Source: an uncultured bacterium
GTDB lineage: Bacteria > Verrucomicrobiota > Kiritimatiellia > PWTM01
Assembly: GCA_938010045.1 (NCBI GenBank)
Contig: CALLFZ010000002.1
Span: 1 to 64,000 of the forward strand
Direction: 5' to 3'
Length of the DNA: 64,000 nucleotides
Part shown: positions 3,001 to 56,221 of the stretch, one piece after another
Numbering within the stretch: position 1 is the first letter of the stretch
How the letters are laid out: every line of letters begins with the position of its first letter
Program-made: the position numbers and the translations under genes
Notes under the pieces: model-generated
What the model was told of the DNA's origin: nothing
Database searches by the model: none
The model's input: the letters and a program-made list of their open reading frames with translations, nothing else

Positions 3001-3064
3001 ATCGGGTTTGCTCGGACCTGTGCGAATATGGCGTGGCGTCGTGTGCGAGGTTCCTGCCCGCTGA
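1..3064 (+). CDS. GH106-type alpha-L-rhamnosidase-like glycoside hydrolase, 5' end cut by window
   Basis: A large secreted-type glycoside hydrolase resembling family GH106, which removes alpha-L-rhamnose from pectin-like and other complex glycans. The frame is open from base 2, and the residues before the first internal ATG (base 53) read like domain sequence (LTITFGRPFVAR). The true start and signal peptide therefore lie upstream of the window. About 1020 residues are visible. The catalytic-barrel region is around residues 190-430 (HLLIDSYEVGSQNW, LSIEPYGNG, FIFHRYAHQPW). The C-terminus is a galactose-binding-like beta-sandwich (LDLGDVWVIAEPSLNGRPFG, EVRVTNLWPNR), as in other GH106 proteins. 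A second GH106-like gene lies at 23138-25885 and shares the C-terminal TNL..NR motif. The family call rests on recognised motifs, and the exact substrate is unknown. Confidence 0.85.
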   Translation, partial: QGATKLTITFGRPFVARMIELAMETGRSAERLEVLAGDATNALRRVADVQVPSQLHSTMPHAVVVSPFTARVVQLRFLTPIGERIPRTIHLADVRLSGGRRIEQWAQKAAFVRGGASSPTVELVEPTVVIPRERIVDLTDRLQPDGRLEWTAPAGDDWIIARYGFTPTGKNNHPAPPEGTGPEVDKMSREAADAFWAGGVQPLLQAAGELTGRSWKHLLIDSYEVGSQNWTPRFREEFHARRGYDLLPWLPVMTGRIVDDLATSERFLWDLRRTIADLFHENYFGYFAELCHRHGLQLSIEPYGNGMFDEVAAGAFADLPMGEFWVHGGATTSTKLAASVAHVYGRRFVGAESFTARWEDGRWQNHPAKLKALGDLIWCQGVNRFIFHRYAHQPWLDAAPGMTMGPWGFHFERTVTWWEQGREWLRYIARSQWLLQEGLHVADVLAWSGETAPASARAPRDLPAGYDWDAADTPTVLQRLRVEHGDLVAPHGSRWRVLVLPPSPVMTLAAARGLVKLAEAGARICGSAPERTPSLAEGPQADAELRRLVAEHWSGEVPDPARRKIWTRSLPEVLQAYGIEPDVTFPREPPGAPARIVWIHRRTEGADWYLVSNQRQRRTVVEVSFRVSGRQPELWCAESGRIAPAAIWREERGRTHVTLDLDRDDAVFVVFREPAHRPPAVRELRVDGRAWEGAVDAGAAPFRILRALYTDPKDHRRSCDLADRLNARIERNRLRVQVSNSIGGDPAPLTPKVLIVDYVVGNTTGSVTVAEHQFLDLPPVSIAPVPAVPRPQFEGVHEGGLRLTAWTTTRVDVVFADGRTQTVEATPGAPVVIEGPWRLSFPPGRGAPDQIELARLISWTEHPEAGVRFFSGTATYSAEFRWPEEPRRAGERWLLDLGDVWVIAEPSLNGRPFGVLWRAPYTVDVTDAVRRGANRLEVRVTNLWPNRLIGDEHLPDDCDWPVLGALRSLPEWFVKGQSRPSGRVAFTTWRHWTKGDPLLSSGLLGPVRIWRGVVCEVPAR

Positions 3065-9933: not shown

Positions 9934-11336
9934 ACCGCCGTGAGTTCCTTGGATCGGCGGCGGCAGTGGCCGGTGGGATGGCCGTTGGCGGCGGAGGCGG
10001 TGCGGTTGCGGCGGCCGGGGCGCACTGGACGGCGTTGAAACCGATCCGGATTCGCGCGGTGCGGTCGAACTTCGAGCGCAACCCCCTGATCCGGCCATTC
10101 GGGTTCAAGGGCGGCTACATGAGCGAAATCTGGCAGGTGGCCGTCCGGCTGGAGAGCGACTCCGGCGCGGCCGCGACGGGACTGGGAACTCAGAGCGTGC
10201 TGTGGAGCGACGCGGCCGTGTTCGAGGCGAACTCCGAAGCGGCGGGGAATGCCCTGATGTACGCGATGACCGAACACGCGCTGCGGCAGGCGCGCGGTCG
10301 GGAATTCCGCCGGCCGGGGGAGCTCTTGGATCAACTGTTCCCCGAAGTGCTCGAGTATGGTCGTCGCATCACCGGCCGTCCGGACCTCCGGCCAACGTTT
10401 GCGTTGAACGCGCTGGTACCGGTCGACCACGCGGCCTGGCTGCTCTTTGCGAAAGAGAACGGCCTGCGGTCATTCGACGATTTCATCGCCCCTGAACACC
10501 GAGCGGCGCTCTCATGCCGCCACGATCGTGTGGCCGCCATTCCGCTCATGGCGTATGCGATTCCGGTCGAGGAGATCCGCGCGGCGGTGGAGCAGGGCTA
10601 TTTCTTCATGAAGATCAAGATCGGTCAGCCCGGCTCGCCGGCCGAGATGCTAGAGAAGGACAAGGCGCGAATCTCTGCGATTCATGCCGCGATCGGCGGC
10701 CTGCGCACGCCGCACACGAAAGACGGACGGCTACCGTATTACTTCGACGCGAACGGCCGGTATGAGTCGAAAGACACGTTTCTGCGGCTGCTCGATCACC
10801 TGCGCGCGATCGGCGCGTTCGATCAGGTGGCGGTGATTGAGGAGCCGTTTGCGGAGCATGCGGACATCGACGTGCGAGACATCCCGCTGCGTCTGGCGGC
10901 GGACGAGACCGCCCATACGGACCGGCATGTGATCGAACGGATCGAGATGGGCTATCGTGCGATCGCGGTGAAGACGATCGCCAAAACGCTCAGCATGACG
11001 TTTCGGATCGCATCGGCCGCTCATGAGCGCGGAGTGCCCTGTTTTTGCGCGGATCTAACGGTGCATCCGATCCTAGTGGACTGGCACAAGAACTTTGCCG
11101 CGCGGCTGGCGCCGTTCCCGGGGCTGGGCCTGGGACTGCTCGAAAGCAACGGACATCAGAACTACCGGGACTGGGCGGAGATGGTGCGGCATCATCCGCG
11201 CGGCGATGCGCCGTGGACGCGCGTGCGGAACGGCGTGTACGAGTTGGGCCCCGAGTTTTACGAAGAGAGTGGCGGCATCTTCGAGCCCTCGCCCCACTTT
11301 GACGCTCTCGTATCGCCACCGCTCAGCGCCCACTGA
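9930..11336 (+). CDS. mandelate racemase/muconate lactonizing-type enolase superfamily protein with Tat signal
   Basis: A 468-residue enolase-superfamily enzyme, probably a sugar-acid dehydratase or racemase. The ATG at 9930 overlaps the previous stop and directly precedes a twin-arginine signal (NRREFLGSAAAVAGG). Catalytic features visible are the K-x-K base at K228/K230 (FMKIKIG), metal ligands D273 (YFDANG), E304/E305 (VIEEP) and D325 (AADET), and a second-side lysine (IAVKTI). The partner dehydrogenase upstream suggests a two-step oxidative route for a sugar acid. Export of both members is unusual for this superfamily but common among PVC Tat-tagged enzymes. The exact reaction is not predictable from sequence. 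Confidence 0.82.
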   Translation: MNRREFLGSAAAVAGGMAVGGGGGAVAAAGAHWTALKPIRIRAVRSNFERNPLIRPFGFKGGYMSEIWQVAVRLESDSGAAATGLGTQSVLWSDAAVFEANSEAAGNALMYAMTEHALRQARGREFRRPGELLDQLFPEVLEYGRRITGRPDLRPTFALNALVPVDHAAWLLFAKENGLRSFDDFIAPEHRAALSCRHDRVAAIPLMAYAIPVEEIRAAVEQGYFFMKIKIGQPGSPAEMLEKDKARISAIHAAIGGLRTPHTKDGRLPYYFDANGRYESKDTFLRLLDHLRAIGAFDQVAVIEEPFAEHADIDVRDIPLRLAADETAHTDRHVIERIEMGYRAIAVKTIAKTLSMTFRIASAAHERGVPCFCADLTVHPILVDWHKNFAARLAPFPGLGLGLLESNGHQNYRDWAEMVRHHPRGDAPWTRVRNGVYELGPEFYEESGGIFEPSPHFDALVSPPLSAH

Positions 11337-17580: not shown

Positions 17581-19173
17581 ATGACAGCGAACCTTTGGGC
17601 GCATGGTTGGGCCGCCGGTGGAGCGGCGGCGGCCGCCCTGTGGGCGGTGGTGGCCCAGGCGGCGATCGTGGCCGCCCCGTACGCGAATGATTTCAGCGGC
17701 GGCGCGGACGAGCTCGAGCGACAGCCGCCGACGCGATGGACGATTTCGATCGGCCGGCTGCGGTACCAGGACACCACTGCGGACACCACGAATGTCGTGG
17801 ACTTCGCGACCGTGACAGTGACGAACCTCGGAGGCGCCACGCCGACCAACTTCGCGGTCTCGGTGAAGTTTGAGATTTCGAGCGCGTCCGAGTCTCCGGC
17901 GGGCAGTGGCGAACGTCTCAGCATCGGTTTGGTCGCGTTGGCCGATCCGGCGCTTACATCCGGTTACTTTGCCGTAGTGGGCGCGGGGGAAGATATTCCC
18001 GGATTCGAGGAAGGTATGGCGTTTTACAAGGACGCGCTCTTTACGAATCAGACCGCGAACTTCTTCATCTCGGGACCCGCCACGGATGGCAGCGAGCGCT
18101 GGAAGCTCACGCTGCTGGGCGAGTACCTAGCCGGTGACCAACTGCGTTTGCGGCTCATCGCGCAGAATCTGACGGCCGCCACATCGGTCACCAACGAATG
18201 GACGGATGACTCGGGACCGCTGCGCAATGGCCAGACGTTCGGCATCGTCGTTGCGCATACGCGGTACGTGAGCACGATCTTCTTTGACGACTTTCTGGTC
18301 TCGCCGGGCCAGGGGGACGATTCGCTGTTTCTGCCCGCCGGCGTTTTATTCCGAGATGACTTTGATCTGCCGCTCGGCGTGAACGGCTGGATGATCTCCG
18401 GGCTCCTTTTTCCGATCTGGTACGGCGTGACCAACGGGATGTGCTTCCTGTACGCGCAGGCGGGCGACATGGCGGGCCCCTGGAACAATCACTACCACCT
18501 CGTGCGGCGCGATCTGGCTTCGGTCTCGACCGGCGACGTGTGCTGGACGCTCGCGGTCGCTACCTTCCTGCCCACCAACGATCACGCGCAGGTTGCGTTG
18601 CTCGTGGGCGACGACGCGGACAACTTCATCCGCCTCTCCTACGGCCATGTGGATGGCGCGCGGAGGATCCGTCTTACCGAAGAGACGGCGGCGACGCCGG
18701 ACACGCGCGCAGACGAGGTTCGCAACTTCGGCTCCGCGCCGTTCTGGCTGCGGCTGACCCGCCAGGGCGGAGTGTATCGAGCCTACTGGAGCACGAACGG
18801 GCTCTGGTATCACCGCGTGGCGGGTGCGGCGACGCGCGACCCAGCGACGCCCTCGTGGTTCGGTTTCTGGGCGGGCGGGGATCTCACGTTTGTCGGCATG
18901 CCGCCCAATGTGGCGTGGATCGACTTGATCGAGGTGCGCGAGTTTCCCGATGTGCCGCAGATGACAGGGGTTGCCGTGTCCGGAGCGGTCGCCCTCGCCA
19001 TTCGCAACCTGTACGGAGCAACGACCGCGACGGTCGAGCGATGCGCGCATCTACCGGGCGGCGTCTGGACAAATGTGGCGCAGTGGGTGGTGGGGGAGGA
19101 TTCCACGAACTGGCTCGATGCGACACCCCCCACCGGAGATGGCCGCTTCTACCGCGTGCGCGTCCAGCCCTAA
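17581..19173 (+). CDS. secreted beta-sandwich protein of unknown function
   Basis: A 530-residue exported protein. The open frame extends back to 17245, but the ATG at 17581 starts a good signal peptide (hydrophobic AAAAALWAVVAQAAIVAA). The rest is rich in beta-strand patterns and aromatic residues. Two similar halves begin YANDFSGGADELERQ and FRDDFDLPLGVNGWM, which suggests duplicated concanavalin/LamG-like domains. The C-terminal 60 residues (VERCAHLPGGVWTNV, DGRFYRVRV) resemble the short Fn3-like or sorting-type domain often found at the end of PVC secreted proteins. I do not recognise an enzymatic site. It may bind glycans or the cell surface. Confidence 0.7.
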   Translation: MTANLWAHGWAAGGAAAAALWAVVAQAAIVAAPYANDFSGGADELERQPPTRWTISIGRLRYQDTTADTTNVVDFATVTVTNLGGATPTNFAVSVKFEISSASESPAGSGERLSIGLVALADPALTSGYFAVVGAGEDIPGFEEGMAFYKDALFTNQTANFFISGPATDGSERWKLTLLGEYLAGDQLRLRLIAQNLTAATSVTNEWTDDSGPLRNGQTFGIVVAHTRYVSTIFFDDFLVSPGQGDDSLFLPAGVLFRDDFDLPLGVNGWMISGLLFPIWYGVTNGMCFLYAQAGDMAGPWNNHYHLVRRDLASVSTGDVCWTLAVATFLPTNDHAQVALLVGDDADNFIRLSYGHVDGARRIRLTEETAATPDTRADEVRNFGSAPFWLRLTRQGGVYRAYWSTNGLWYHRVAGAATRDPATPSWFGFWAGGDLTFVGMPPNVAWIDLIEVREFPDVPQMTGVAVSGAVALAIRNLYGATTATVERCAHLPGGVWTNVAQWVVGEDSTNWLDATPPTGDGRFYRVRVQP

Positions 19174-23137: not shown

Positions 23138-25885
23138 TTAGAAGCCGACTGCCGCCGCGGATGGATCCCCACCGGTGCGCATCGCTGATTCGCCGTCGGG
23201 ACCGGCAGGACGACACAGGCGAACCGGACCACCGAGACCGGAGGGTTGCACCGGCCACTCGGCGGCGTCGAAGGGACGGTAGCGAATGTTCACGAAATTG
23301 ATGTCGTAGAAAATGCGCCACGGCACCTTGCGCCGATCCAAGTCACGAATGCGGTTGGCGGCGAGGTTTGTGACCTCGATGTCCAACCGGTTACCGGCAG
23401 GCTGAACCATGCCGAGGGGAATCGCCCACCGGTAAGGACGCTGAAACCGTGCACCGAGGTCATTGCCGTTGAGGCGCGCGCGGGCAACGTGGCGCACCTC
23501 GCCCAGATCGAGCCACACGATGCGGGGAACCTCGTTGGTCCAAGGATTGGACGAAGCGCCGGCCCAAGCTTCCCATGGTTGGACATCGAACGTTGTCCGG
23601 TACACGGCTGTGCCCGCAAAGGCATCGGCCGCCTCGTCGCCGCGGCCGGTCCAGAACGCGGGCGAATCGGTGTCGAATGGCGCGGGCAGTGAAGGGCCGC
23701 CCTCGAGAAATTCGACGCGCCATCTCTTCAACTCCGCCAGTGTCCGACCGGGCGCCCACGCGCGCCACGGCGGATCGTTGGCGGGCGCGGCGTCGGCGTG
23801 ATCCCACGTCCGCACGATGATCGAATGGCCGGGCTCGAGGCGGATCCGAACGAACAGGCGGCCGGCGTCATCTCGGCGCAGCGCGACGGCGCCGTGGTCG
23901 CCGGTGAGCGGGTCGAGGAGACGAACCGCGGCAGCGGGCGGGGGAAGTTCGAGCTCGCGATCCAGGACGTCGCGGCCGTGCCATGCCAACCAGAGCCAGC
24001 GGCCGTCGGGCAACCGGCGGCGGATCGTGAGCAGGCCGTCTGCTGCGCCGAGTGATGGGCGCACGATGCCGGCCGCGGTGAGGAGGTCGTCGAGGCGGCC
24101 GAGCAGCAGCCGACCGCGGCCGACCGCGCGGGCGGTCACCTGCGGCACGGGGCAGGGCAGGTCCGGGGCCGTTTCGATGCGACGGCGCAACGCCGAGAGC
24201 TCAGCGCGGCGCTCGTCAAGCCGGCCGAGGCCGGGCACATCCTCCGGCAACGGAGCTTCCCAGAGGAGGGTGGCGCCATTCTCGGCTAGATCCAGACACC
24301 GCGCGGCGGCGCGAGGGGGCAGATAGCGGCACCGGGGCACGTACAGTGCGCGCCATCGCGCCCCGCCGGCGGTGGCGATCGCGCCGTCCGGTGTTGCGCG
24401 CACCTGCGTTAGCAGCCGCTCAGAGACGAAGTCGAACGCGATGCCGCGGCCCCACAGCTCGCGTGCCGTCTCGCCGACCGGTTGGTCGTGAAGCCACTCG
24501 CGCTGGTGCACGCCCATCCAGATCGGTTCGACGGGCCGACCGGCGGCGGGCGGCGTCATGAAGAGATCGTCCACCGGCCAGTAGAGCAGCAGATCGGCCT
24601 CGGGGTGTCCCTGCTGCAATACGCTCTGCGAGCGCGCCAGGCCGTCGTGCAGCGCGCGTGCCTCGCGCCAAAGCGGATTGCGTGGGTTCATCTGGGTGGA
24701 GGCATAGAACAACCAACCGGGCCAGGCGGCGTCGTCGGGCGAATAGACGCAGCCGTGCCAGATCACATGATTGACCCCTGCCGCGAAGAGCAGGTCGGCC
24801 AGGCCGCGCAGTTCTTCGAAGGTTTCGCAGAAGTGTTCGGCGATCCAGGTGCCCGTCTCCGCCGAGACGAGCGGGCGATCCATGAGATGCGCCGCGGAGG
24901 AGGCGAACTTCGAGACGAGCGGATCGCGGTCGCCCTCGCCGAAGCGTTCGTCGAATCCCGACCGCAGCGGATCGCGATCGCCACGGCCGAACATCTCGGT
25001 TTCGGGGATGTCGGCGAGCGCGTAGAGATCGAGCAGGTTCGCGGCTGCGCCATGGGCTTGCAGTCGCGTGCGGAGACCGCGCGCGCGGGCTTCGGCAGTC
25101 CAGTGCGCGATCACCGCCTCGATCGCAAGGTCGGAGAGCGTGGAGCGGTAGTCCGCAGCGACGCGCGCGATCCGATCGGCCGACCCGCGACCGGCGAGCT
25201 CATCGAGGACCTCTTCGGGCCCGTAGCCGTGTTGCCGGCGCCACGCGTTGGGCAGCTCGGGCGCCCACGTGCAGCCGAAATACTCGTACGAATCATGGTA
25301 CAGCGCGCGCGGCCGGCCGCCACCGGGCGGCGCGAACCGCCCGAACCAGTCGCGCACATACTCGCGCATCGCCGCCGGCGAGAACGGGTTGATCATGAGT
25401 CCCTCACCGCCGGGTGCCGCGCGTTTGACCTTGAGGCCCGTGGGCGTGGCCTCGAGGCGACCGTCCTTCACGGACCACATGAGGCCGCCGTGCTCGAGGC
25501 GAACGGTCGGCCCGCCGAAGCACCAGCCGGTGCCCATCGTGAGGTCCACGCCGAGATCGAGCCGCTCGGCCTCGCGCGCGGTGAACGCGAACAGGTCGAG
25601 CCACCGCTCGGAGAGATACGGCACGAAGCGGTGTTCGGCGCCGCGCGCGCCGTAGATCGGGATGACGTGCACGCCGCCCAGCCCGGCGGCGTGGTGACGT
25701 TCGAGCTCGCGCCGAATGTTGGCCTCGTCCACCGCGCTGCCGGGCCACCAGTGGTAGGCCCAGGGCCGCTGCTCGCGCCCGATCGGCGGCCATGGATCGC
25801 CGCCGCCTGCGCGGAGCGTGAGGAGACCGGCGCCCGCGGCAAGAACCGCCGCCCGCCACGTGAGGCCGCGCCGCCCCGCGCTCAT
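23138..25885 (-). CDS. GH106-like alpha-L-rhamnosidase family glycoside hydrolase
   Basis: A 915-residue secreted hydrolase with a signal-like N-terminus (AAVLAAGAGLLTL). Typical GH106 features are PWAYHWWPGSAVDEANIRRE, DLTMGTGWCFGGP near residue 120, LYHDSYEYFGCTW near 200, and HVIWHGCVYSPDDAAWPG in the barrel. The C-terminal galactose-binding-like domain reads DIEVTNLAANRIRDLD. It resembles the gene at 1-3064, although the N-terminal parts differ. Its ATG overlaps the smpB stop (ATGA), an odd pairing of a housekeeping gene with a glycosidase. The substrate is inferred from the family, not proven. Confidence 0.83.
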   Translation of the reverse strand: MSAGRRGLTWRAAVLAAGAGLLTLRAGGGDPWPPIGREQRPWAYHWWPGSAVDEANIRRELERHHAAGLGGVHVIPIYGARGAEHRFVPYLSERWLDLFAFTAREAERLDLGVDLTMGTGWCFGGPTVRLEHGGLMWSVKDGRLEATPTGLKVKRAAPGGEGLMINPFSPAAMREYVRDWFGRFAPPGGGRPRALYHDSYEYFGCTWAPELPNAWRRQHGYGPEEVLDELAGRGSADRIARVAADYRSTLSDLAIEAVIAHWTAEARARGLRTRLQAHGAAANLLDLYALADIPETEMFGRGDRDPLRSGFDERFGEGDRDPLVSKFASSAAHLMDRPLVSAETGTWIAEHFCETFEELRGLADLLFAAGVNHVIWHGCVYSPDDAAWPGWLFYASTQMNPRNPLWREARALHDGLARSQSVLQQGHPEADLLLYWPVDDLFMTPPAAGRPVEPIWMGVHQREWLHDQPVGETARELWGRGIAFDFVSERLLTQVRATPDGAIATAGGARWRALYVPRCRYLPPRAAARCLDLAENGATLLWEAPLPEDVPGLGRLDERRAELSALRRRIETAPDLPCPVPQVTARAVGRGRLLLGRLDDLLTAAGIVRPSLGAADGLLTIRRRLPDGRWLWLAWHGRDVLDRELELPPPAAAVRLLDPLTGDHGAVALRRDDAGRLFVRIRLEPGHSIIVRTWDHADAAPANDPPWRAWAPGRTLAELKRWRVEFLEGGPSLPAPFDTDSPAFWTGRGDEAADAFAGTAVYRTTFDVQPWEAWAGASSNPWTNEVPRIVWLDLGEVRHVARARLNGNDLGARFQRPYRWAIPLGMVQPAGNRLDIEVTNLAANRIRDLDRRKVPWRIFYDINFVNIRYRPFDAAEWPVQPSGLGGPVRLCRPAGPDGESAMRTGGDPSAAAVGF

Positions 25886-31445: not shown

Positions 31446-32975
31446 ATGCGCTGGACGATGCGGGGATGGGTGCTCGCCACGGCGGGAGCCGCGGCGCTCG
31501 CGATGGCGGCCGAGCGGCCGCCGAATATTGTCATTGTGCTCGCTGATGACCTTGGATGGGGCGAGCTCGGCAGCTACGGCCAAACGAAGATCCGCACACC
31601 GCACGCCGACCGGCTTGCGCGGGAAGGGTTGCGCTTCACGCGTCATTACAGCGGCAGTCCCGTCTGCGCTCCATCGCGCTGCGTATTACTCACCGGCCAT
31701 CACCCTGGACACGCCGCGGTGCGCGACAACCGGCCGTCCGGCACGGGCGAGGGGCAGTGGGACCTGCCGGCCGGCATCCCGACCCTCGCGGAGGTCCTGC
31801 GCAGGCGCGGTTATGCCACCGGCCTTTTTGGCAAATGGGGGCTGGGCACGCTCGAGGGGCCGGGCCATCCCTCGAAGCGCGGCTTTGACCGATGGTTTGG
31901 CTACCTCTGCCAGTCGCAAGCGCACTCGCTGTACCCCAGCTTCCTCCGCGACGACGGCCGCGTGTTCCCTTTGAACAACGATCCGCCGGTCCCCGGACAT
32001 GCCCGCTTCCCGGACGGCGTTGACCCGTTCGATCCATCCGCATACGCTCCGTACAAAGGCCGCGATTACGCGCCGGCCCGCATTCGGGAGGCCGCACTCG
32101 AGTTCATCCGGCGCCATCGCGACCGCCCCTTCTTCCTCTACTACGCGAACGTGCTTCCCCATCTCGCGTTGATGGTGCCCGACGAGGACCTGCGGCCCTA
32201 CCTCGAGCTTGGCTGGGACGATCCGCCCTATCTTGGCACCCATGGCTATACGCCGCACCGACACCCGCGCGCCGCGTATGCGGCGATGATCAGCCGCCTC
32301 GACGCCGATCTCGGCGCCGTGTTGGAAGAACTCGGTCGGGCCGGGCTGGAGCGCGACACGATCGTGATCTTTTCGTCCGACAACGGCCCGACGCATGACG
32401 TTGGCGGTGTCGACACGGCCTTTTTCAATTCCGCGGGCGGTCTCAAGGGGCGTAAAGGATCGCTGGACGAGGGTGGCATCCGCGTGCCGTGCATCGTCCG
32501 CTGGCCGGGCCACACGCCCGCCGGCTCAGTCACCGACGCGCTCACCGGCTTCGAGGATTGGATGCCGACGCTGCTGGAGATTGCGGGTGCCGAGCGGCCG
32601 GCCGGGCTCGACGGGGTGAGTTTGCGGGGGCTGCTCGAGGGTGGCGCGGCGCCGGAGCGCGAATTTCTGTATCGCGAGTTTCCCGGTTACCGCGGCTGGC
32701 AGGCCGTCTGGCAGGGCCCGTGGAAGGCCGTGCGTCGCGATGTGCTGCCGCGCGCGCGCCGCGGCGAGCCAGCGCTCACCGAGCTGTACAACCTCGCCGA
32801 GGATCCCGCCGAAACCCGGAATCTCGCGGCGGAACATCCGGAGCTCGTGGTACGGTTCGATCAGATTATGGCCCGAGAACACACACCCTCGCCCGACTTC
32901 CCGCTGCTGCTGATGGACGGTCTCCCGTCAAGCGACAGAAAGCAACGAGAGCCGAAACCGCGCGAGTCGCGGTGA
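31446..32975 (+). CDS. secreted Cys-type sulfatase (arylsulfatase A-like, S1 family)
   Basis: A 509-residue exported sulfatase. An ATG at 31389 overlaps the previous stop. I chose 31446 because GGAGGAGG precedes it and the signal peptide (TMRGWVLATAGAAALAMAA) begins there. The formylglycine motif is C74-A-P-S-R, and metal ligands appear in VLADDLGWGE and SSDNGPTHD. KGRKGSLDEGGIRVP is the usual substrate-side loop. Cys-type sites need oxidation to formylglycine, and the maturase at 59419-60714 could do this. It probably removes sulfate esters from marine or host glycans. The substrate is unknown. Confidence 0.93.
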   Translation: MRWTMRGWVLATAGAAALAMAAERPPNIVIVLADDLGWGELGSYGQTKIRTPHADRLAREGLRFTRHYSGSPVCAPSRCVLLTGHHPGHAAVRDNRPSGTGEGQWDLPAGIPTLAEVLRRRGYATGLFGKWGLGTLEGPGHPSKRGFDRWFGYLCQSQAHSLYPSFLRDDGRVFPLNNDPPVPGHARFPDGVDPFDPSAYAPYKGRDYAPARIREAALEFIRRHRDRPFFLYYANVLPHLALMVPDEDLRPYLELGWDDPPYLGTHGYTPHRHPRAAYAAMISRLDADLGAVLEELGRAGLERDTIVIFSSDNGPTHDVGGVDTAFFNSAGGLKGRKGSLDEGGIRVPCIVRWPGHTPAGSVTDALTGFEDWMPTLLEIAGAERPAGLDGVSLRGLLEGGAAPEREFLYREFPGYRGWQAVWQGPWKAVRRDVLPRARRGEPALTELYNLAEDPAETRNLAAEHPELVVRFDQIMAREHTPSPDFPLLLMDGLPSSDRKQREPKPRESR

Positions 32976-41967: not shown

Positions 41968-42062
41968 GGAGAGGTGGCTGAGTGGCTGAAAGCGGCGGTT
42001 TGCTAAACCGTTATACTGGCCGAACGCCGGTATCGGGGGTTCGAATCCCCCCCTCTCCGCCA
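41968..42062 (+). tRNA. tRNA-Ser (anticodon GCT)
   Basis: A class II tRNA of 95 bases including encoded CCA. The acceptor GGAGAGG pairs with CCTCTCC. The anticodon arm GCGGTTTGCTAAACCGT presents GCT, which reads AGC/AGU. A long variable arm and T-loop GGTTCGAATC follow. Confidence 0.96.
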
Positions 42063-42160: not shown

Positions 42161-42237
42161 GGGCGCTTAGCTCAGTTGGCTAGAGCACTACCTTGACATG
42201 GTAGGGGTCACAGGTTCAAGTCCTGTAGCGCCCACCA
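42161..42237 (+). tRNA. tRNA-Val (anticodon GAC)
   Basis: A standard 77-base tRNA including CCA. The acceptor GGGCGCT pairs with AGCGCCC. The D-arm is GCTCAGTTGGCTAGAGC, and the anticodon stem CTACC/GGTAG encloses TTGACAT. The T-arm is CAGGTTCAAGTCCTG. It reads GUC. Confidence 0.97.
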
Positions 42238-42362
42238 CCTCGTCTTTGTCCGACAGGTCCGACAGGTCGGACGGGTCTCTTGCGGTCGGTGCGGCGCGGG
42301 TGATAGGTTGCGGCGCCGTGGAGACGAATCCGTCATCCGATCTCCATCGTTCCCGGCGCTGC

Positions 42363-44372
42363 ATGGTGTGGCCGCTGGGCGCGGGCGTCGAAGGATCTCC
42401 GGAGGCCGTGTGGCCGACCGCGCGGCTCGGCGAGGCGGGTGCCTCGCTGATGCGGCTGAGTGCGGCCCGGTTTCCGGTGCCGCCCGGCTTTGTGATCTCG
42501 GCCGAGGTGGGCGCCTTCTATGCGCGCAGCGGCGGGCGGTTTCCACCGGGTGTTTGGGATCAGATCCGCCAGCAACTGGCGCGGATCGAACGGACGGTGG
42601 TGAGCGAGCGGGACCGCGCGCCTCGACCGCTGCTGCTGCGGGTGCGGATGGAGGCGCCCGTGGACGAAGCCGTCGCATCGCCGACCGTGATGGTCCTCGG
42701 CGTTAGCGAAGCTGCGGCCGAGCGGCTGGCCGACGCCACCGGCCACACCGCCCCTGGGTGGCGCGCCTGGGCGCGCCTGTTGCGCGCGTACGGCTCAACG
42801 GTGCTGCACGCCGCGCCAGATGTGCTCGACGAGACGCGCACTCGCCTGCTGCGGCGGCATCGAGTGGCATCGGAAACCGCGCTGACCGCGGAGGGCGCCC
42901 GCGAGCTGTGCGCGGAACTGCGCCGCGTCCTCTGGGACCAGGCCCGACAACCCGTTCCCATCGAGCTCGAGGACCAATTGCGGGGCCTGCTCGTATGGGC
43001 CTACGAACGTTGGTCGCATGTGAATTGTCCGGACGAATCTACCGGCGGCCTTCGCTTCGGGGTTCCGGTCGTCGCCACGATGGCGGTGTTGAGTGACCTC
43101 GATGAGAGTTCCGTCGCCTGCGCCGCGTGGTCCCGCGACCCGATCACCGGCGCGCCGGGCGTCTCCGGCCGACTGCTGGCGGACGACACTCAGCCTCCCG
43201 ACCCCTCGGCGGGTCTGCCGTTGGCGACGCTCGCCTCGGCGCGCGATCCACAGTTGCGCGTCGCCCACGGACAGATTCAACGCTACACGCAACGCGCCGA
43301 GCAGATCGCGGGCTGGCCGCAAATGATCGAATACGTCGTCGAGAGCGGCCGCCTCTGGGTGGTCGGCGCGCTACCCGCGAGGGCCGCGCCGTGGGCCACG
43401 CTGCGGTGGGCGGTGGACCTCGTCGGTGCCGATGGGAGCGATCGTGGCGGGCCGGTGCGCGACGTACTGCTGCGGTTGACGCCTCGCGATCTCGGGCGTC
43501 AGGTCCGCCTCCCGACCGCCACGCGGCACGTCCGCGAGACGGTGCTCGAGTGGTGCCGCGCTCACCGTCGAATTCAAGTGCTCGGTTTGCAGATCGGTGA
43601 GCATCCGCCGGGCGCGCCGGACGCCAGCGCCGCCGATGGCGTGATGTGGTGGCTCGAAGCGTCGCCGGGATCTGACCGGCCGCGCGAGGCAATGTGGGCT
43701 GTCCTCAACCGGCTCTTTGCGCGTCACCGCGGGCGGCCCGTCGCGCTGGTGGTGCCGGCGGACTGGTTTGCGCCTCGCGCGACGGCGCCGGCGGCCGGCG
43801 TCGCGAGCACGCCGCTGGCTCACCTGCCGCCGGTGTTGCGGCGTGCGGTGAGAGCCCGGATTCGTCCGCGGCTGGCCATCGCGGTTCCGGCGGGTGATCT
43901 CGGGCGGGGCGCGCTGGCTGCGATCGAGGCGTTGCGACGCGAGGTGCAGGGGGTTGAGGGTGCGCTCGAACGCCGTCTGCGCATCGAAACGGGCGTGGCG
44001 GTGGACTGTCCGCGCGCGGTGCTGGTGCTGGACTCGGTCAGTGAGATGGCGGCCTTCGCGGTGCTCGACCTCGACCGGCTCGACGCCGCGCTCCGGGGTC
44101 GCAGGTTCCGCGCGGATGAGGCGAACCACCGGCCATTTGATGCGGATGGACTTGGCGTGTTGATCGAGACCGGCGTGCGTCGCGTGCGCGAGGCTCAACC
44201 GCGGTTCCGGTTGGTGGCGGCGCTCCGTGGCATGCCGTCGCCCGCGCTGCTGCGGCTGTGCCTGCGCCTGGAGCTGGATGCGATCGCCGTGCCGGATCCA
44301 CTCGCGGCGCCCGCCAGCCTGGCCGCCGCGCAAGTGTCGCTCCGGGTCGAGGTCAGCGAGTCGGCGATGTAA
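42363..44372 (+). CDS. pyruvate phosphate dikinase-like protein lacking catalytic residues
   Basis: A 669-residue protein aligning with PPDK from end to end by motif order. The N-terminal segment has FPVPPGFVISAEVGAFY, then MAVLSDLDESS and SRDPITG from the ATP-grasp part, and ESGRLWVVGALPARAAPWA. The C-terminal segment has VDCPRAVLVLDSVSEMA and ANHRPFDADGLGVLIETGVR, ending LDAIAVPDPLAAPASLAAAQ. The swivelling domain with the phospho-histidine (TSHAAVVA) is missing. The catalytic cysteine region (normally ICGEHGGDP) reads VAALRGMPSP, and the FGTNDLTQ motif is lost. It is about 200 residues shorter than PPDK. It is probably a pseudoenzyme. The start could also be a GTG at 42318. It precedes fixC by 113 bases. 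Confidence 0.72.
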   Translation: MVWPLGAGVEGSPEAVWPTARLGEAGASLMRLSAARFPVPPGFVISAEVGAFYARSGGRFPPGVWDQIRQQLARIERTVVSERDRAPRPLLLRVRMEAPVDEAVASPTVMVLGVSEAAAERLADATGHTAPGWRAWARLLRAYGSTVLHAAPDVLDETRTRLLRRHRVASETALTAEGARELCAELRRVLWDQARQPVPIELEDQLRGLLVWAYERWSHVNCPDESTGGLRFGVPVVATMAVLSDLDESSVACAAWSRDPITGAPGVSGRLLADDTQPPDPSAGLPLATLASARDPQLRVAHGQIQRYTQRAEQIAGWPQMIEYVVESGRLWVVGALPARAAPWATLRWAVDLVGADGSDRGGPVRDVLLRLTPRDLGRQVRLPTATRHVRETVLEWCRAHRRIQVLGLQIGEHPPGAPDASAADGVMWWLEASPGSDRPREAMWAVLNRLFARHRGRPVALVVPADWFAPRATAPAAGVASTPLAHLPPVLRRAVRARIRPRLAIAVPAGDLGRGALAAIEALRREVQGVEGALERRLRIETGVAVDCPRAVLVLDSVSEMAAFAVLDLDRLDAALRGRRFRADEANHRPFDADGLGVLIETGVRRVREAQPRFRLVAALRGMPSPALLRLCLRLELDAIAVPDPLAAPASLAAAQVSLRVEVSESAM

Positions 44373-44485
44373 CGCGCCGCGTTTCGCTTGACTTGGATGC
44401 GCGGGAACGCGATCAATGCGCGCTTGCGCCGTGCCGGCGCGGCCGAGCGGGCCCAGAGCCTATGCCGCGGCGGGGATGGAGTTGG

Positions 44486-45814
44486 ATGAGCTCAGACGAC
44501 ACGGTTCCGATGGACGCCATCGTCGTCGGCGGTGGCCCGGCGGGGCTGACCGCCGCGCTGGTGCTCGCGCGCGCGGGCCGGCAGGTGATGGTGGTCGAGC
44601 GCGGCGAGTACTGCGGCGCGAAGAACGTGGGCGGATTGCTCTACGGCAGCGTGCTCGCGCGCTTGATGCCGGAGTACGTCCGCGAGGCCCCGCTCGAACG
44701 TCCCGTTTCCCGCCGGCGGCTCACCTTCCTGGCCGACACGGAGGAGATCGCGCTCGAGTTCGGTGCGGCGGCCTGGTCCGAGCCTCCCTTCAACCACACG
44801 CACGTTGTACATCGCTCACAGTTCGACCGTTGGTACGCGAAGCAGGCCGAGGACGCCGGTGCGAACCTGATCGAGGGCATGGTGGTGGACGCGCTGCTCT
44901 ACGAGGGCGACCGCGCCTCGAAGCGCGCGGTCGGCGTGCGGTTGCGCGGCGACGAGGAATTCCGCGCGCCGATCGTGATCCTCGCCGACGGCGCCAACTG
45001 CCTCGTGAGCGAGAGCGCGCGCCTCGCGCTCGGGTTGCGGCCCGGCCGCGTGCGGCAGGAGTACGCGATTGGCGTGAAGGAGATCCTCGGCCTGCCGCGC
45101 GGCACGATCGAAGACCGGTTCCAACTCGAGCCGCATCAGGGGATGGCGCTCGACTTTTTCGGCGTCCCCTTTCGCGGGCTGATCGGCGCGGGGTTCATCT
45201 ACACCGCGCGGGAGTCGCTGCACCTCGGGTTCGCCGCGCGGATCGAGTCGCTTGCGCGCTCGGGCCTGACGCCCAACGAGGTCATCGAGGGCTTCAAAGC
45301 CCACCCCGCGGTGCGCCGCCTCATCCGCGGGGCGGAACTGCTCGAATATTCGGCCCACATGATCCCCGAGGGCGGTTACGATGCCATCGGCGACCTGCAC
45401 GGACCCGGCGTGATGATCGCGGGCGATGCGGCGGGGCTGGTGAATTTTTCGCTCTACAAGGAGGGCACAAATCTCGCGATGGAGTCCGGCGCGATGGCCG
45501 CCGAGACCGCGCTCGAGGCGCTCAAGGCGGGCGATACGTCCGCCGCGCGGCTGGCCGCCTACCGTCGGCGGCTCGAGGACAGCTGGGTGATGTCCGACCT
45601 GCGCCGCTACCGCCACGTCGGTGAGGTGCTCGCCGGCTCGCCCGACCTGCTCGACCTTTACCCCCGCAAGGCCGCGAAGTTGCTCACCGACTATTTCGCG
45701 GTAAGCTGCCGCAGCAAGTCCGAGGTTCAACGCGAGGCCTGGCGCGCGTTCTGGCGCGGCCTGCCGAAACTGCGCGCCGCGCGGGACCTCTGGCGCGCGC
45801 GCCGGCTCGTGTGA
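44486..45814 (+). CDS. fixC: FixC, ETF-quinone oxidoreductase-type flavoprotein
   Basis: A 442-residue FAD enzyme that passes electrons from the electron transfer flavoprotein towards quinone. The FAD site is AIVVGGGPAGLTAALVLARA, followed by CGAKNVGGLLYG and the second FAD segment GVMIAGDAAGLVNFSLYKEG. The amphipathic membrane-contact part is FFGVPFRGLIGAGFIY. GGAG lies 6 bases before the ATG, and the long upstream frame is rejected. It is the first gene of a fixC-X-etfB-etfA operon. Confidence 0.93.
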   Translation: MSSDDTVPMDAIVVGGGPAGLTAALVLARAGRQVMVVERGEYCGAKNVGGLLYGSVLARLMPEYVREAPLERPVSRRRLTFLADTEEIALEFGAAAWSEPPFNHTHVVHRSQFDRWYAKQAEDAGANLIEGMVVDALLYEGDRASKRAVGVRLRGDEEFRAPIVILADGANCLVSESARLALGLRPGRVRQEYAIGVKEILGLPRGTIEDRFQLEPHQGMALDFFGVPFRGLIGAGFIYTARESLHLGFAARIESLARSGLTPNEVIEGFKAHPAVRRLIRGAELLEYSAHMIPEGGYDAIGDLHGPGVMIAGDAAGLVNFSLYKEGTNLAMESGAMAAETALEALKAGDTSAARLAAYRRRLEDSWVMSDLRRYRHVGEVLAGSPDLLDLYPRKAAKLLTDYFAVSCRSKSEVQREAWRAFWRGLPKLRAARDLWRARRLV

Positions 45815-45836
45815 CCCGGCGCGACGGAGACCATCC

Positions 45837-46136
45837 ATGAGCAATGACGAGTCGATGCCGTTGACCGACAAGCTCTACCGCACCCGCTACGAGCCCGACG
45901 CCGCGCACCCGCATGTGCGCGTGGACGCGGAAGCGTACCGGCGGGCCGGCACAAAAAAGCTGTTGAAGATCTGCCCCGCCGAGGTGTACAAACCGGCACC
46001 GAACGATCCGGAGGCAGTTCAAACATCGCATGAGAACTGCCTTGAGTGCGGCACGTGCCGCCAGGCCGCGCCGGAGGAGGGCGTTGAGTGGACGATGCCG
46101 GACGGCGGCAAGGGCGTGAAATACCGGTATGGGTGA
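45837..46136 (+). CDS. fixX: FixX, ferredoxin-like electron carrier
   Basis: A 99-residue Fe-S protein that works with FixC. Four cysteines suited to one [4Fe-4S] cluster are seen in KICPAEVY and ENCLECGTC. The C-terminus VEWTMPDGGKGVKYRYG is typical of FixX. It lies 22 bases after fixC. Confidence 0.92.
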   Translation: MSNDESMPLTDKLYRTRYEPDAAHPHVRVDAEAYRRAGTKKLLKICPAEVYKPAPNDPEAVQTSHENCLECGTCRQAAPEEGVEWTMPDGGKGVKYRYG

Positions 46137-46157
46137 GTCCGCGGGAGGACGATTCGC

Positions 46158-46955
46158 ATGGCGCTGACAATCGCAGTCGTGGCGCGCGAGGTCTGGGACA
46201 CGCGCGACCTGAGCGGCACAGTGCTCGACGAGAACGGCCGGCTTCGGCCCGGCGCGCTGCCGACGCGGTACGAACCGGAAGACCTCAACGCGCTCGAGGC
46301 CGCCTTGCGGCTCAAGGATGCGCAGGGTGCGACGGTCACGGTGCTCAGCCCCGGTGAGGTGCGGCAGGTGGACGTCGCGCGCGAGGCGCTCTACCGCGGC
46401 GCAGACGGCGCGGTGCGGATCGCCGCCGATCCGGATGAGCTCGACGACGCTGCGCTCGGCGCGCTGCTCGCCGCGGCCATTCGGAAGCTCGGCTCGGTGA
46501 ACCTGGTGCTGGTGGGCACCGCGGTGCCCGACACTGCCGGCTCGCTGCTCGCGCGCCATCTGGCGCAGGCGCTGGGATGGCCGGCGATCTTGTGGGTGGA
46601 CGCGATTGAGGAGACCGCCGCGGACCGCGTCATCGCACGGCGCGCGATCGAAATGGGCTATGAGTCGGTGGAAGCCCCCCTCCCCGCGCTGCTCGCGATC
46701 GGCGTCGCGCTGCTCGAGGACGACCCCCGCGCGCCGCGGCCCGCGAAGGCCATGTTGAAGCTGAAGCTCAAGAAGGCCGAGGTGCCAGTCTGGACACCCG
46801 CTGAGCTGGGCATTCCCGATCCCGCGGCGCGTTGCGTCACCCGGCGGCGGCGCCGCGAACCGGTGCCACCGCGCGTGATCGAAACGCGCACCGTGGACCC
46901 CGAGAACGAGGCCGAGCTGCGCGCGATGCTGGACAGTGTCCGGAAAGGAGCCTGA
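46158..46955 (+). CDS. etfB: electron transfer flavoprotein beta subunit (FixA)
   Basis: A 265-residue small ETF subunit. The N-terminal nucleotide-binding fold begins at LTIAVVAREVWDT. EPEDLNALEAALRLKDAQGA, VLVGTAVPDTAGSLLARHLA and the AMLKLKLKKAEVPVW segment are family features. In the FixABCX type this subunit takes part in NADH-dependent electron bifurcation. That activity is inferred from the four-gene context. It is followed by etfA after 3 bases. Confidence 0.9.
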   Translation: MALTIAVVAREVWDTRDLSGTVLDENGRLRPGALPTRYEPEDLNALEAALRLKDAQGATVTVLSPGEVRQVDVAREALYRGADGAVRIAADPDELDDAALGALLAAAIRKLGSVNLVLVGTAVPDTAGSLLARHLAQALGWPAILWVDAIEETAADRVIARRAIEMGYESVEAPLPALLAIGVALLEDDPRAPRPAKAMLKLKLKKAEVPVWTPAELGIPDPAARCVTRRRRREPVPPRVIETRTVDPENEAELRAMLDSVRKGA

Positions 46956-46958
46956 CCC

Positions 46959-47930
46959 ATGTCCCGAGTTCTGGTGATCGCCGAAGTGGCGGATGGCGTG
47001 TTCAACGACATTTCGCTGCAGTGTCTCGCCGCCGCGCGCGCGCTGGCCGGCCCTGAGGGTGAGGTCGAGGCGATGCTCGTCGGCGCGAGCGTCCGCCCCC
47101 ATGCGGCGCGGCTAGCCGCCGGCGGCGCCGACTACGTGACGGTGGTCGACGACGCGCGTCTGGCCACCTACACCACCGAGCCTTGGCTTGCTGCCGCGCG
47201 CGCTCAGCTCGCCGCCGCCCCTGCCGCCGCAGTGCTGCTGCCCGCCACGACGATCGGCAACGACCTCGGGCCCGCCCTGGCCGCCAGCCTCGGTGCGGCA
47301 TCGGTCGTTGATGCCGACGGCGTGGCGATCGAAGACGGCCGGCCAGTCGCGTGGCGCGTCGGGTTCGATCGCAAGGTCCGAACCACGTGGGCGCCGGAGG
47401 GCGATCGGCCGCTCGTGGCGACGCTGCGCGACGGCGCCGCGCCCATGCCTGGCCCCGACGCGGCGCGCGCAGGCACCATCCGCACCCTCGCGCTCGACGA
47501 GGTTCTCGCGGGCGGGGGCTTCCTCACCAAGGTGGTGCGACGCGACGTCGCCGCGCGCACGGTCAATCTGCGCGACGCAGACGTCATTGTCGCCGCCGGT
47601 GCCGGCGTGGGCAGTCCCGAGGGGGTGGACCTGGTCCGTCGGCTCGCCGCGGCGCTGGGCGGCGAGGTCGGCGCCACTCGCGCAGTGGTTGACGCCGGCT
47701 GGCTTTCGGCCGATCGGCAGATCGGCCAGACCGGCGCGACCGTGCGGCCGGACCTTTACATCGCGTGTGGCATCAGCGGCGCGATTCAACACCGAGTTGG
47801 CATGCTCGACTCTCGGACGGTGATCGCGATCAACACCGACCCCAATGCGCCGATATTTCGGTCCGCGCACTATCGGATTGTTGGCGACCTGAAGGCTGTG
47901 ATTCCGAAACTGCTGAAGCTGCTCAGCTGA
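46959..47930 (+). CDS. etfA: electron transfer flavoprotein alpha subunit (FixB)
   Basis: A 323-residue large ETF subunit. The C-terminal FAD domain is clear: GAGVGSPEGVDLVRRLAAAL, DAGWLSADRQIGQTGATVRP, YIACGISGAIQHRVGM and INTDPNAPIFRSAHYRIVGD. The N-terminal half is the Rossmann-like part shared with the beta subunit. A perfect 18-base palindrome (47918-47935) covers the stop codon and may aid transcript ending. It is the last gene of the operon. Confidence 0.93.
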   Translation: MSRVLVIAEVADGVFNDISLQCLAAARALAGPEGEVEAMLVGASVRPHAARLAAGGADYVTVVDDARLATYTTEPWLAAARAQLAAAPAAAVLLPATTIGNDLGPALAASLGAASVVDADGVAIEDGRPVAWRVGFDRKVRTTWAPEGDRPLVATLRDGAAPMPGPDAARAGTIRTLALDEVLAGGGFLTKVVRRDVAARTVNLRDADVIVAAGAGVGSPEGVDLVRRLAAALGGEVGATRAVVDAGWLSADRQIGQTGATVRPDLYIACGISGAIQHRVGMLDSRTVIAINTDPNAPIFRSAHYRIVGDLKAVIPKLLKLLS

Positions 47931-52289: not shown

Positions 52290-53225
52290 ATGAGAACATG
52301 GTGGGTATGGTTGGCGGTGGGCGGGATGGCCGCGGGCGCGCCGGCGGGGCCCGTGCGGCCGAGCGATATTCCGGCGGAGGCGAAGTGGTGGGCCCATTGC
52401 GATGTCGAGCAATTCAAACAGACCGCGGTGGGACGGACGTTCCTGGAGATGCTCGGAGAACCGGACGTCGCCCGGAAGCTGGACGCGCTGAAGGCGGTGT
52501 TCAATTTCGATCTCCGGACCGATCTCGACGGCATCACGGCCTGCGGCGCGGGCCGGCGGAGTGCGGTGATCGCGCGCGGACGGTTCGACGAGTCGCGGCT
52601 GCTTACGCTCCTCAAGGCCGGCGATGGCTATCAAGAACTCGTCGTGGACGGCCGGACGATTCACTCGTGGTTAGACGAGGGCAAGGTCCAGAAACAGGGA
52701 CGGGAGAAAGCCCGGATGTACGGGGCGATCCATCGCAGCGGCGCTGCGGTACTTTCGGAACAGGCCGAGACGGCTGCGCACGTACTGAAGGTGCTCGATG
52801 GCGAAGCGGCGGGCCTGCCCGACGCCGCAGTACCCTCCCACGACACCGCGGCGGTCCTGATCGCCCGAATGAGTGCGGATGCGGTGCCCGCCGAGCAGGC
52901 GGAACATCCCGTGCCGCGAGGGGTGAAGGCCGCGGCGCTTGCGATCGCCGAACGCGGCACAAACGTTGAGGCGCGGCTGAACATGACGTTGAGGGACGCG
53001 GCGACGGTGACGCAGATCCGGCAGATCGTGGACGGTCTGCGCGCCGCCGCCCTGCTGAACTCTGAGAAGGATCCCCGCGCGGCGCGTCTCGCGGAGCAGG
53101 TCTCGGTGCGCGCGGAGGAGGACCGGCTGGAGATGTCGCTCAGTCTGCCCGTCGCGGAGATCACAGCGGCGATGCGGGCGGAACTCGAAAAGAAGCGAGC
53201 GACGGCGCCCGCTCCATCGCCGTGA
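52290..53225 (+). CDS. secreted protein of unknown function upstream of an ECF sigma factor
   Basis: A 311-residue exported protein (signal MRTWWVWLAVGGMAAGAPAG). ATGs at 52089 and 52266 are also in frame. I chose 52290 because GGGGAAAGGG precedes it. The mature part (IPAEAKWWAHCDVEQFKQT, FNFDLRTDLDGITACG) resembles a widespread PVC family of alpha/beta secreted proteins with no known activity. Its stop overlaps the sigma factor start (GTGA), so the sigma factor and this protein are coupled. Confidence 0.7.
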   Translation: MRTWWVWLAVGGMAAGAPAGPVRPSDIPAEAKWWAHCDVEQFKQTAVGRTFLEMLGEPDVARKLDALKAVFNFDLRTDLDGITACGAGRRSAVIARGRFDESRLLTLLKAGDGYQELVVDGRTIHSWLDEGKVQKQGREKARMYGAIHRSGAAVLSEQAETAAHVLKVLDGEAAGLPDAAVPSHDTAAVLIARMSADAVPAEQAEHPVPRGVKAAALAIAERGTNVEARLNMTLRDAATVTQIRQIVDGLRAAALLNSEKDPRAARLAEQVSVRAEEDRLEMSLSLPVAEITAAMRAELEKKRATAPAPSP

Positions 53226-53848: not shown

Positions 53849-54394
53849 GTGATGCGGTGTCAATGGTATCGCTGGCGTTGGAGCGCGGCGCGAGATGGGG
53901 GACGGAGCGCGCCGACGGGCGCGCGTCACCTGGAGCGCTGCGCCGCGTGCCGGCAGTGGATCGCCGGCGTAGAACGCGCGGAGCGGGCCCTCGCGAACGA
54001 GGAGGTGGCGGCCCCGATCGCGGTGGAGGACGCCGCCCGTCTCTGGCGGCAGGTGGCGGCAAGACGGTCAGCGGATGGCATCTCGCGCCACGTCCAACTC
54101 CCTTCCTCGCCGCGATGGTGGGTCGGGCTGGCGGCAGGGGCGACCGCGGCGGCACTGGTGCTGGCCATGCGGGTGGGGCGGCCTGGGCGGATCGAACCGG
54201 CGCCGGAGCTAGCCCGGATGGGATTGGCCGTCGCCAGCGAGGTGGCGGGATGGGCAAGCCGCCTGGCGGAATGGAATGAGCAGCCCGCCGCCGAGGCTGG
54301 ACGGCTCCTCGCGGGCGCCATCCGGCCGCTGGTGGAGGATGTCCGTGAGACGCTCGGTGAGTGGTCGGTGCTCGTCCACGGAGACGTTCTATAG
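53849..54394 (+). CDS. putative membrane-bound anti-sigma factor
   Basis: A 181-residue protein starting at GTG (ATG follows at once). The N-terminus has a zinc-binding anti-sigma motif RHLERCAACRQW (His-x3-Cys-x2-Cys). One membrane helix (WWVGLAAGATAAALVLAM, about residues 90-108) follows, and the C-terminal part should face the periplasm. Position right after the ECF sigma gene supports the role. Its 3' end overlaps the convergent hydrolase gene by six bases. Confidence 0.78.
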   Translation: MMRCQWYRWRWSAARDGGRSAPTGARHLERCAACRQWIAGVERAERALANEEVAAPIAVEDAARLWRQVAARRSADGISRHVQLPSSPRWWVGLAAGATAAALVLAMRVGRPGRIEPAPELARMGLAVASEVAGWASRLAEWNEQPAAEAGRLLAGAIRPLVEDVRETLGEWSVLVHGDVL

Positions 54395-56221
54395 TTGGAG
54401 CGCCGCCCCGGCGCACCGCGCTGATGTCGGCGGCGCGCGGTCGGCCGGCGGCACCTCCGAGGCGTTGGGCACGACCGCCGCGCGCAACGCGATCTCGCGC
54501 GTGAACGGGGGAACGGCCAGCCGCAATGTCGGCCCTGGATCGGTCAAGGTTTCGCGCGCGCGGAGATCGCCGCTCTCGGGGTCCACCCATTCGATGTTCC
54601 AGGTGCCGACGCGGCCCGCCGCCAACTCAATGCGCACCCCTTCGAGGTGGCGCGGCGCGTGGTGCTCCGCGACCTCGCGGTGCCACGTTGCCTCGCGCTC
54701 GCGAATCCACATCCGCACATCATCGCGAACCCGGAGGCCGGCCCAGAGCAACGAACTGGGCACGTTCACGCGGAGCGGCTCCACGCCGCCGGTCCAATCG
54801 AAGCCGTCCAGAAATCTCGCGAGCGGCGCGTAACAACGCTCCGCGCCCATGTCCTCGAGCGTTTCCCACCACCAGAACATCGCGGTGCCGGCCAGGCCCG
54901 AGAGCGCCGAGGCCCACAGCGCATCGTGAACATGGCGGAGCGCTGTGTCCTGCCGCATCCAGGGGCTGTGCCGCCACTGATCATCGGCGAGGCCGAATTC
55001 GCTCAGGATCGCGGGCCGATCCGGTGCGTGGTGTCGCAGGAACGCGGCCCGCTCGAGCACAGCGGCGGCTGCATCGGTCCAGAGTTGGCCCCATGCTGGA
55101 CGCAGGTACCAGTGAAGATCCGCCAGCTGGATCGCCGGATCGCGCCAGAGGGCGGGCGCCGGGGCCCAGGCGCTCGCGGTGCGAGGGCGACGCCACGGAT
55201 CGGTCTCGTCGAGGAACGCGGCCAGTTCGCGATAGAAACGGCCGGCCGGCAGGCTCGGGTCGATTTCGTTCCAGTATTCCCAGACCGCGACGGCCGGCGA
55301 GGCGCCCCAGCGGGCGACCGCGTAGCGGAAGAGCCGACGGGCGTCGCGAATCGCGGCCGCGTAGTCCGGCGAGGCCGGATCGCGAAGGCGGCGCATGTAG
55401 CGGTCGCGGGTCAGCAGGCAGATGTGCAGGCGAACGCGCGCCGCCTCCGCGGCCTCAACGACGAGATCCAGCATGGCGGCGTCGGGCTGATTGACCTCGC
55501 CCATGCCGCGATGGGTTACGCCGCGCTCGTGCACCGGCCAGCGTTCTGGCGAGGGGCCCGGGCCACCGCGGCCGGGTTCGAGCGAAATTGCCCAGTCATC
55601 GCAGCCCGTCCAGATGCGGAGGTAATTGACGCCGTGCGCCGCGAGGCGGCCGATCACCGTCGCCACGCGGCTGGGCGTAACCTTCTGCATCGGGCCGATG
55701 AAACACAGATTCTGGCCGATCGCGAACCATGGACGGCCGTCGTCGAGTTCGAAAAACCGCGGATCCCGCCGACTCACGCGTAGGCGCGGCGGCACCGTTC
55801 CCGGCGCCACCACCACGCCGAGCGGCGAGGACGTGACCACGCACGCGTTGTTCACCCTTGCGACCACCGCGACGGTGTGCGGGCCGGGACGTTGAAACCG
55901 CCAGGTCAGCCGCCAATGCGGCTCGCCCTCGGGCTCCATCCACTCGCGGCGGAACCGGGGCGGCTGCGGCGGGCGGGCGCGATACGGCTCCACCCAAGCG
56001 AGGGGCACACGGAAGGTGTCGTGCTCAGGTCCTTGAATCTCGGCGTCCAGGGCCACCTCGTCGGGGTCGAACGGATGGCTGGCCCGCGGCGTGAGTTCGA
56101 GGGCAGCGGTCCATGCCCGTCCGACCACAGCGGTGGGCGGCGCCTCGATCCAACGAAGTGCGGTCGGCGGGGCGGCCGGCGTCTCCGACGGAACCGTCAG
56201 CGCCACGGCGGCTGCACGCAT
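54389..56221 (-). CDS. cellulase-fold glycoside hydrolase with DUF5060-like N-terminal domain
   Basis: A 610-residue hydrolase. Residues about 20-140 form a beta-sandwich like DUF5060 (HWRLTWRFQRPGPHTVAVVA). Residues 160-470 form a clan-A TIM barrel. The acid/base is E319 in EYWNEIDPS and the nucleophile E408 in ILSEFGLAD. A short C-terminal beta domain ends it. The frame runs far upstream through the GspK gene, but the ATG at 56221 shares a base with that gene's stop (TGATG) and starts a weak signal-like segment. The substrate is unknown. Confidence 0.82.
   Translation of the reverse strand: MRAAAVALTVPSETPAAPPTALRWIEAPPTAVVGRAWTAALELTPRASHPFDPDEVALDAEIQGPEHDTFRVPLAWVEPYRARPPQPPRFRREWMEPEGEPHWRLTWRFQRPGPHTVAVVARVNNACVVTSSPLGVVVAPGTVPPRLRVSRRDPRFFELDDGRPWFAIGQNLCFIGPMQKVTPSRVATVIGRLAAHGVNYLRIWTGCDDWAISLEPGRGGPGPSPERWPVHERGVTHRGMGEVNQPDAAMLDLVVEAAEAARVRLHICLLTRDRYMRRLRDPASPDYAAAIRDARRLFRYAVARWGASPAVAVWEYWNEIDPSLPAGRFYRELAAFLDETDPWRRPRTASAWAPAPALWRDPAIQLADLHWYLRPAWGQLWTDAAAAVLERAAFLRHHAPDRPAILSEFGLADDQWRHSPWMRQDTALRHVHDALWASALSGLAGTAMFWWWETLEDMGAERCYAPLARFLDGFDWTGGVEPLRVNVPSSLLWAGLRVRDDVRMWIREREATWHREVAEHHAPRHLEGVRIELAAGRVGTWNIEWVDPESGDLRARETLTDPGPTLRLAVPPFTREIALRAAVVPNASEVPPADRAPPTSARCAGAALQL

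Follow-up and report, generated by a model that had tools for sequence, protein, structure and literature searches.

A conserved swivel-less pseudoenzyme of the pyruvate phosphate dikinase type in an uncultured Kiritimatiellia lineage and its possible partnership with the active enzyme

The stretch of DNA analysed here (64,000 nucleotides, hereafter the window) contains a gene whose product resembles pyruvate phosphate dikinase (PPDK) but lacks both the phospho-histidine swivel domain and nearly all of the catalytic residues, and which is located just upstream of a fix operon. This locus raises the question of whether such a protein is a decaying remnant or is retained for a purpose and, if retained, on what it acts. 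The features of the locus are as follows.

41968-42062: tRNA-Ser(GCT), upstream of tRNA-Val
42161-42237, forward strand: tRNA-Val(GAC), a neighbour outside the pseudoenzyme gene
42280-42309, forward strand: promoter of the pseudoenzyme gene (TTGCGG, 18-base spacer, and extended -10 element TGATAGGTT at 42301-42309), a motif conserved in orthologues
42363-44372, forward strand: swivel-less PPDK pseudoenzyme, 669 aa (intact frame, PPDK similarity, fold, and orthologues)
42363-43397, forward strand: degenerate ATP-grasp (nucleotide-binding) domain, residues 1-345
43485-43520, forward strand: junction around residues 375-386, at which the phospho-His swivel and its linkers are missing compared with PPDK (alignment to the 940-aa canonical PPDK)
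43515-44369, forward strand: degenerate PEP-binding domain, residues 385-669, a predicted complete TIM barrel (alignment, residues, Pfam, and model)
44388-44417, forward strand: promoter-like site (TTGACT ... GATCAAT) belonging to the fix operon, separate from that of the pseudoenzyme gene
44486 or 44510-45814, forward strand: fixC
45837-46136, forward strand: fixX
46158-46955, forward strand: etfB
46974-47930, forward strand: etfA

The open frame of 669 residues given in the preliminary description was recovered at 42363-44372 on the forward strand, where it is intact and ends with a TAA stop codon. A longer alternative frame, specifying 724 aa, begins at 42198, but this start falls within the tRNA-Val gene and 5' of the conserved promoter, and 42363 is therefore the better start. 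The promoter element TGnTAGnnT was identified 25-62 bases ahead of the ATG in seven of the eight pseudoenzyme orthologues, six of which additionally contain TTGnnn at a distance of 17-18 bases from it; the chance expectation is 0.05-2% per upstream region, figures that serve as a guide and not as a test because the motif was recognised on the same sequences on which it was scored. The two tRNA genes were not found adjoining the pseudoenzyme gene in relatives and may mark a rearrangement point. Elsewhere in the window, two GH106 alpha-L-rhamnosidase-like genes (53-3064 and 23138-25885) and a sulfatase gene (31470-32975) are present, which suggests the degradation of rhamnose-containing and of sulfated polysaccharides, and four long, likely coding frames (10035-11336, 17581-19173, 52317-53225, and 54389-56206) have no Pfam match at the thresholds used.

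The similarity of the protein to PPDK far exceeds chance. It is matched by the NCBIfam model TIGR01828 (E 1.2e-34), with a score of 119 bits compared with the equivalog cut-off of 843 bits, and by PPDKs in the PDB (E 2.1e-26). The order of its motifs is that of PPDK, from the N-terminal PVPPGF segment to the C-terminal LAAAQ segment, as had been described; clear similarity spans residues 22-355, the C-terminal match being weak, and homology to PPDK extends over the ATP-grasp and PEP-binding domains. Pfam matches of this copy are below threshold or lacking (PPDK_N scores 20 bits, the cut-off being 27), whereas PPDK_N is matched in four and PEP-utilizers_C in three of the eight orthologues; the swivel family PEP-utilizers is matched in none of the eight. 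An AlphaFold2 model generated with the eight orthologues as input (pLDDT 84, pTM 0.79) consists of an ATP-grasp domain (residues 1-345) followed directly by a complete PEP-type TIM barrel with eight alternating strands (residues 405-411, 426-430, 459-463, 503-509, 542-547, 565-569, 616-620, and 640-644), the domain limits being our own reading. With this model as query, Foldseek returned PPDKs as the top matches (E 7.5e-32; TM-scores, normalised by query length, reach 0.77), and the pseudoenzyme is thus predicted to retain the PPDK fold.

To judge the catalytic state, about 35 PPDKs of the class, belonging to types I and II, were compared with 10 dead copies. The equivalents of K22, R92, D321, E323, Q335, R337, H455, R561, R617, E745, N768, D769, and C831 are invariant in those active enzymes, where covered, and are gone from the eight swivel-less copies save for scattered survivors, with the reservation that single columns in diverged stretches depend on the alignment. 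In the copy studied here, the ATP site has undergone the changes K22 to A, D321 to M, Q335 to G, and R337 to L, with R92 and E323 kept (the R92 equivalent is variable in relatives), and the PEP/pyruvate site the changes R561 to V, R617 to A, E745 to D, N768 to D, D769 to R, and C831 to A. The swivel with its phospho-acceptor His (H455) is absent from all eight orthologues. The reported absence of the swivel, the catalytic Cys, and FGTNDLTQ was thus borne out, but the Cys region is not wholly missing, its flanks (D593xxGxGxL... and LAAAQ) having persisted. Since the replaced residues include those for both ligands and the ATP loop (residues 99-106) is modelled with some of the lowest confidence in the protein, the binding of ATP or PEP that had been suggested is unlikely. 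The protein is almost certainly a pseudoenzyme and not an active PPDK.

The pseudoenzyme is not confined to this genome. Eight of the nine genomes of the family contain both an intact swivel-less copy and a complete canonical (type I) PPDK, so that an active paralogue, as judged from its residues, accompanies the pseudoenzyme here and in each of the other seven. In this genome, the complete PPDK is a 940-aa open frame on contig C38 with all catalytic residues present, and the type I PPDK of the family is presumably the active enzyme. In the ninth genome (G007, 89% complete), the pseudoenzyme was not found, and only a type II PPDK fragment, with all covered residues intact, was present. Beyond the family, searches of 346 genomes of the class and of 388 of the phylum detected no swivel-less copy; in the search of the class, the next best match drops from 1e-226 to 1e-119. 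The survey of relatives that had been proposed thus revealed conservation of the protein, and the intact PPDKs in these genomes are separate paralogues, the direct orthologues all being dead; the copy is not merely a decaying member of an otherwise active group.

Two genomes of other families, G029 (L044, 9580-12330) and G103 (L102, 455-3238), contain a full-length dead PPDK in which the swivel region is present. Its open frame has 928 codons and lies immediately 3' of an active type I PPDK gene on the same strand. These tandem loci, in which the active gene is followed by the dead one, extend over L044:6577-12330 and L102:455-6170. A strong terminator-like hairpin separates the two genes at both loci; they are neighbours and not plainly one transcript. 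The G103 copy has R22, I337, P455, C561, A617, A745, S768, T769, and F831, and the G029 copy keeps R561 and C831 but has R22, Q337, T455, S617, D745, D768, and E769. By the DNA motif for LGLRGANL, full-length dead copies were found only in these two of the 346 genomes, although divergent ones could escape the motif.

In the tree, the ten dead copies group together as a single clade (support 1.0), placed within the type II side and apart from type I. An independent maximum-likelihood tree without G103, when given a type I root, agrees with this arrangement. Inside the dead clade, the branching order is less secure (0.91), and long branches call for caution. From these sequence relationships, we infer that type I probably took over as the working enzyme, and that the type II copy would have lost catalysis and later the swivel as well. 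The type I and type II lineages, which are about 50% identical, alternate among the families of the class as if by repeated replacement. Separately, L112:1931-4858 and L113:2283-5627 encode chimeric proteins of 976 and 1115 aa, in which a PPDK-type ATP-grasp N-terminus with intact motifs is followed by a long middle and a swivel-like C-terminus (GGVLSHGAI), a domain order resembling that of rifampin phosphotransferase.

As to what the protein does, the explanation that we favour, with somewhat less than even confidence, is that this descendant of the type II lineage would act by protein-protein contact, with the active PPDK as its most likely partner. The pairing would most probably involve its TIM barrel and the type I enzyme and would set the amount, stability, or activity of that enzyme, as prozymes or dominant inhibitors do. 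Known PPDKs require dimerisation via their PEP-binding domains for activity (PMC5556012), and dead paralogues of trypanosomatids activate their partner enzymes (PMC5201418, PMC3663545); because the dimerising domain has been kept and an active PPDK is present in the cell, action on that enzyme would be the simplest course. The coexistence of each of the eight swivel-less copies with a complete type I PPDK and the direct adjacency of the two full-length dead copies to one are in line with this explanation. Against it, the pseudoenzyme gene is not linked to PPDK in the family, a strong terminator lies between the genes in the two tandem genomes, the trees of the active and dead copies match imperfectly, and the pseudoenzyme is missing from many genomes that have type I PPDK. 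The narrower proposal of a dikinase prozyme, in which the dead swivel-less PPDK would associate with the active PPDK and govern its dimer-dependent activity, and in which the tandem full-length dead copy is an intermediate evolutionary stage that other families of the class still display, is a speculative one that we regard as rather unlikely when taken as a whole.

The barrel has diverged faster than the remainder of the protein, with 51% identity to the nearest orthologue compared with 72% in the ATP-grasp part, which is contrary to the expectation for a constrained dimer interface and weakens the partner explanation. Together with the many type I genomes that have no pseudoenzyme, this makes scaffolding unrelated to PPDK nearly as likely. 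The dead protein would then have been repurposed as a scaffold or as a binder of another ligand or protein, with the better-conserved ATP-grasp half as its working part, an alternative to which we give a modest chance. Its lack of linkage to PPDK in the family and several newly fixed positions (e.g. R299, V325, and P286) are consistent with such a change of role; however, 31 of the 42 positions invariant among the pseudoenzymes carry the plain type II PPDK residue and the others are mostly conservative replacements (K to R, M to L), so that no new active site is evident.

A less probable alternative sees the protein as a remnant of the displaced type II PPDK that is slowly being lost, weakly constrained against misfolding alone and with no lasting function. 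Its evolution is much faster than that of the active enzyme (between the two closest genomes, identity is 62% for the pseudoenzyme and 93% for the active PPDK), and one family member, the 89% complete assembly mentioned above, yielded no copy. On the other side, the full open frame has been kept in all eight copies, down to about 26% identity, the promoter is conserved, and the predicted fold is well formed. For the closest pair, NG86 estimates of dN/dS were 0.306/1.017 = 0.30 for the pseudoenzyme and 0.041/0.728 = 0.056 for the active PPDK, ratios that are rough as dS is near saturation, and in 500 neutral simulations to the same divergence a mean of 8.8 stops arose and never zero, compared with none in the real copies. 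These figures indicate that the pseudoenzyme is under purifying selection; the loss of catalytic residues is consistent among orthologues. Simple decay and sequencing artefact are ruled out by the eight intact copies and by the selection, and the view that a PPDK-like pseudoenzyme has been kept as a protein is upheld by orthologues, structure, selection, and promoter alike.

The adjacent operon (44486-47930, in the order fixC, fixX, etfB, and etfA) figured in the proposal that the protein may be an ATP or PEP sensor regulating this electron-transfer flavoprotein operon. In this genome, the pseudoenzyme gene does lie 113-137 bases 5' of fixC on the same strand. In six relatives, however, fixC and the pseudoenzyme are on different contigs; in G001, fixC is located about 2 kb from the active PPDK; and in G007, fixC occurs but the pseudoenzyme was not detected. 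In G003, whose assembly is 68% complete, fixC was not found. The promoter-like site at 44388-44417, read by eye, has similar counterparts ahead of fixC in G001, G002, and G006, so that fixC can be independent of the pseudoenzyme gene, and no neighbour gene of the latter is common to most genomes of the family. The linkage to fix is therefore local to this genome and coincidental. With the nucleotide and PEP residues gone and separate conserved promoters in place, a sensor of this kind is very unlikely; a role as partner or component of the fix operon was likewise ruled out by synteny and the separate promoters. Partial enzymatic activity through migrated residues is still more improbable: some copies retain the R92 and E323 equivalents, but the phospho-carrier His domain, the Mg-binding pair, and the catalytic Cys are missing and the leftover residues are not common to the orthologues.

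PPDK carries out the reversible pyruvate-PEP step and depends on its dimer, and a conserved dead paralogue without the moving carrier domain would constitute a natural test of why PPDK dimerises. The series from active type II through full-length dead to swivel-less dead copies documents a stepwise loss of catalysis, which apparently followed replacement of the enzyme by another lineage. No earlier PPDK pseudoenzyme was found in the literature searched, which omits most subscription papers. Compared with known PPDKs (TIGR01828; PDB 1kbl, 1jde, 1vbg, and 5jvj), with which it shares common ancestry, the ATP-grasp/TIM-barrel order, and the PVPPGF and LAAAQ segments, the protein is about 270 residues shorter, has no swivel, and has nearly all catalytic residues replaced. 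The full-length dead PPDKs of G029 and G103 belong to the same clade and have similarly lost catalytic residues, but they differ in keeping the swivel region (with the His lost) and in adjoining an active PPDK gene. Short PPDKs (NF004531/PRK05878) and rifampin phosphotransferase are, like the pseudoenzyme, members of the PPDK/PEP synthase superfamily that have been shortened or rearranged. The short PPDKs, judged by the length of their model, probably lack the C-terminal end, whereas the pseudoenzyme is devoid of the swivel. Rifampin phosphotransferase, unlike the pseudoenzyme, retains its His swivel domain and activity (PMC4844700). A functional parallel may be the trypanosomatid prozymes, namely the AdoMetDC prozyme (PMC5201418) and the dead paralogue of deoxyhypusine synthase (PMC3663545), in which a dead paralogue likewise exists beside an active enzyme; their enzyme families are unrelated and their activating complexes are proven, whereas the pairing of the PPDK pseudoenzyme is proposed by analogy and, if true, would make it a bacterial counterpart of the trypanosome prozymes.
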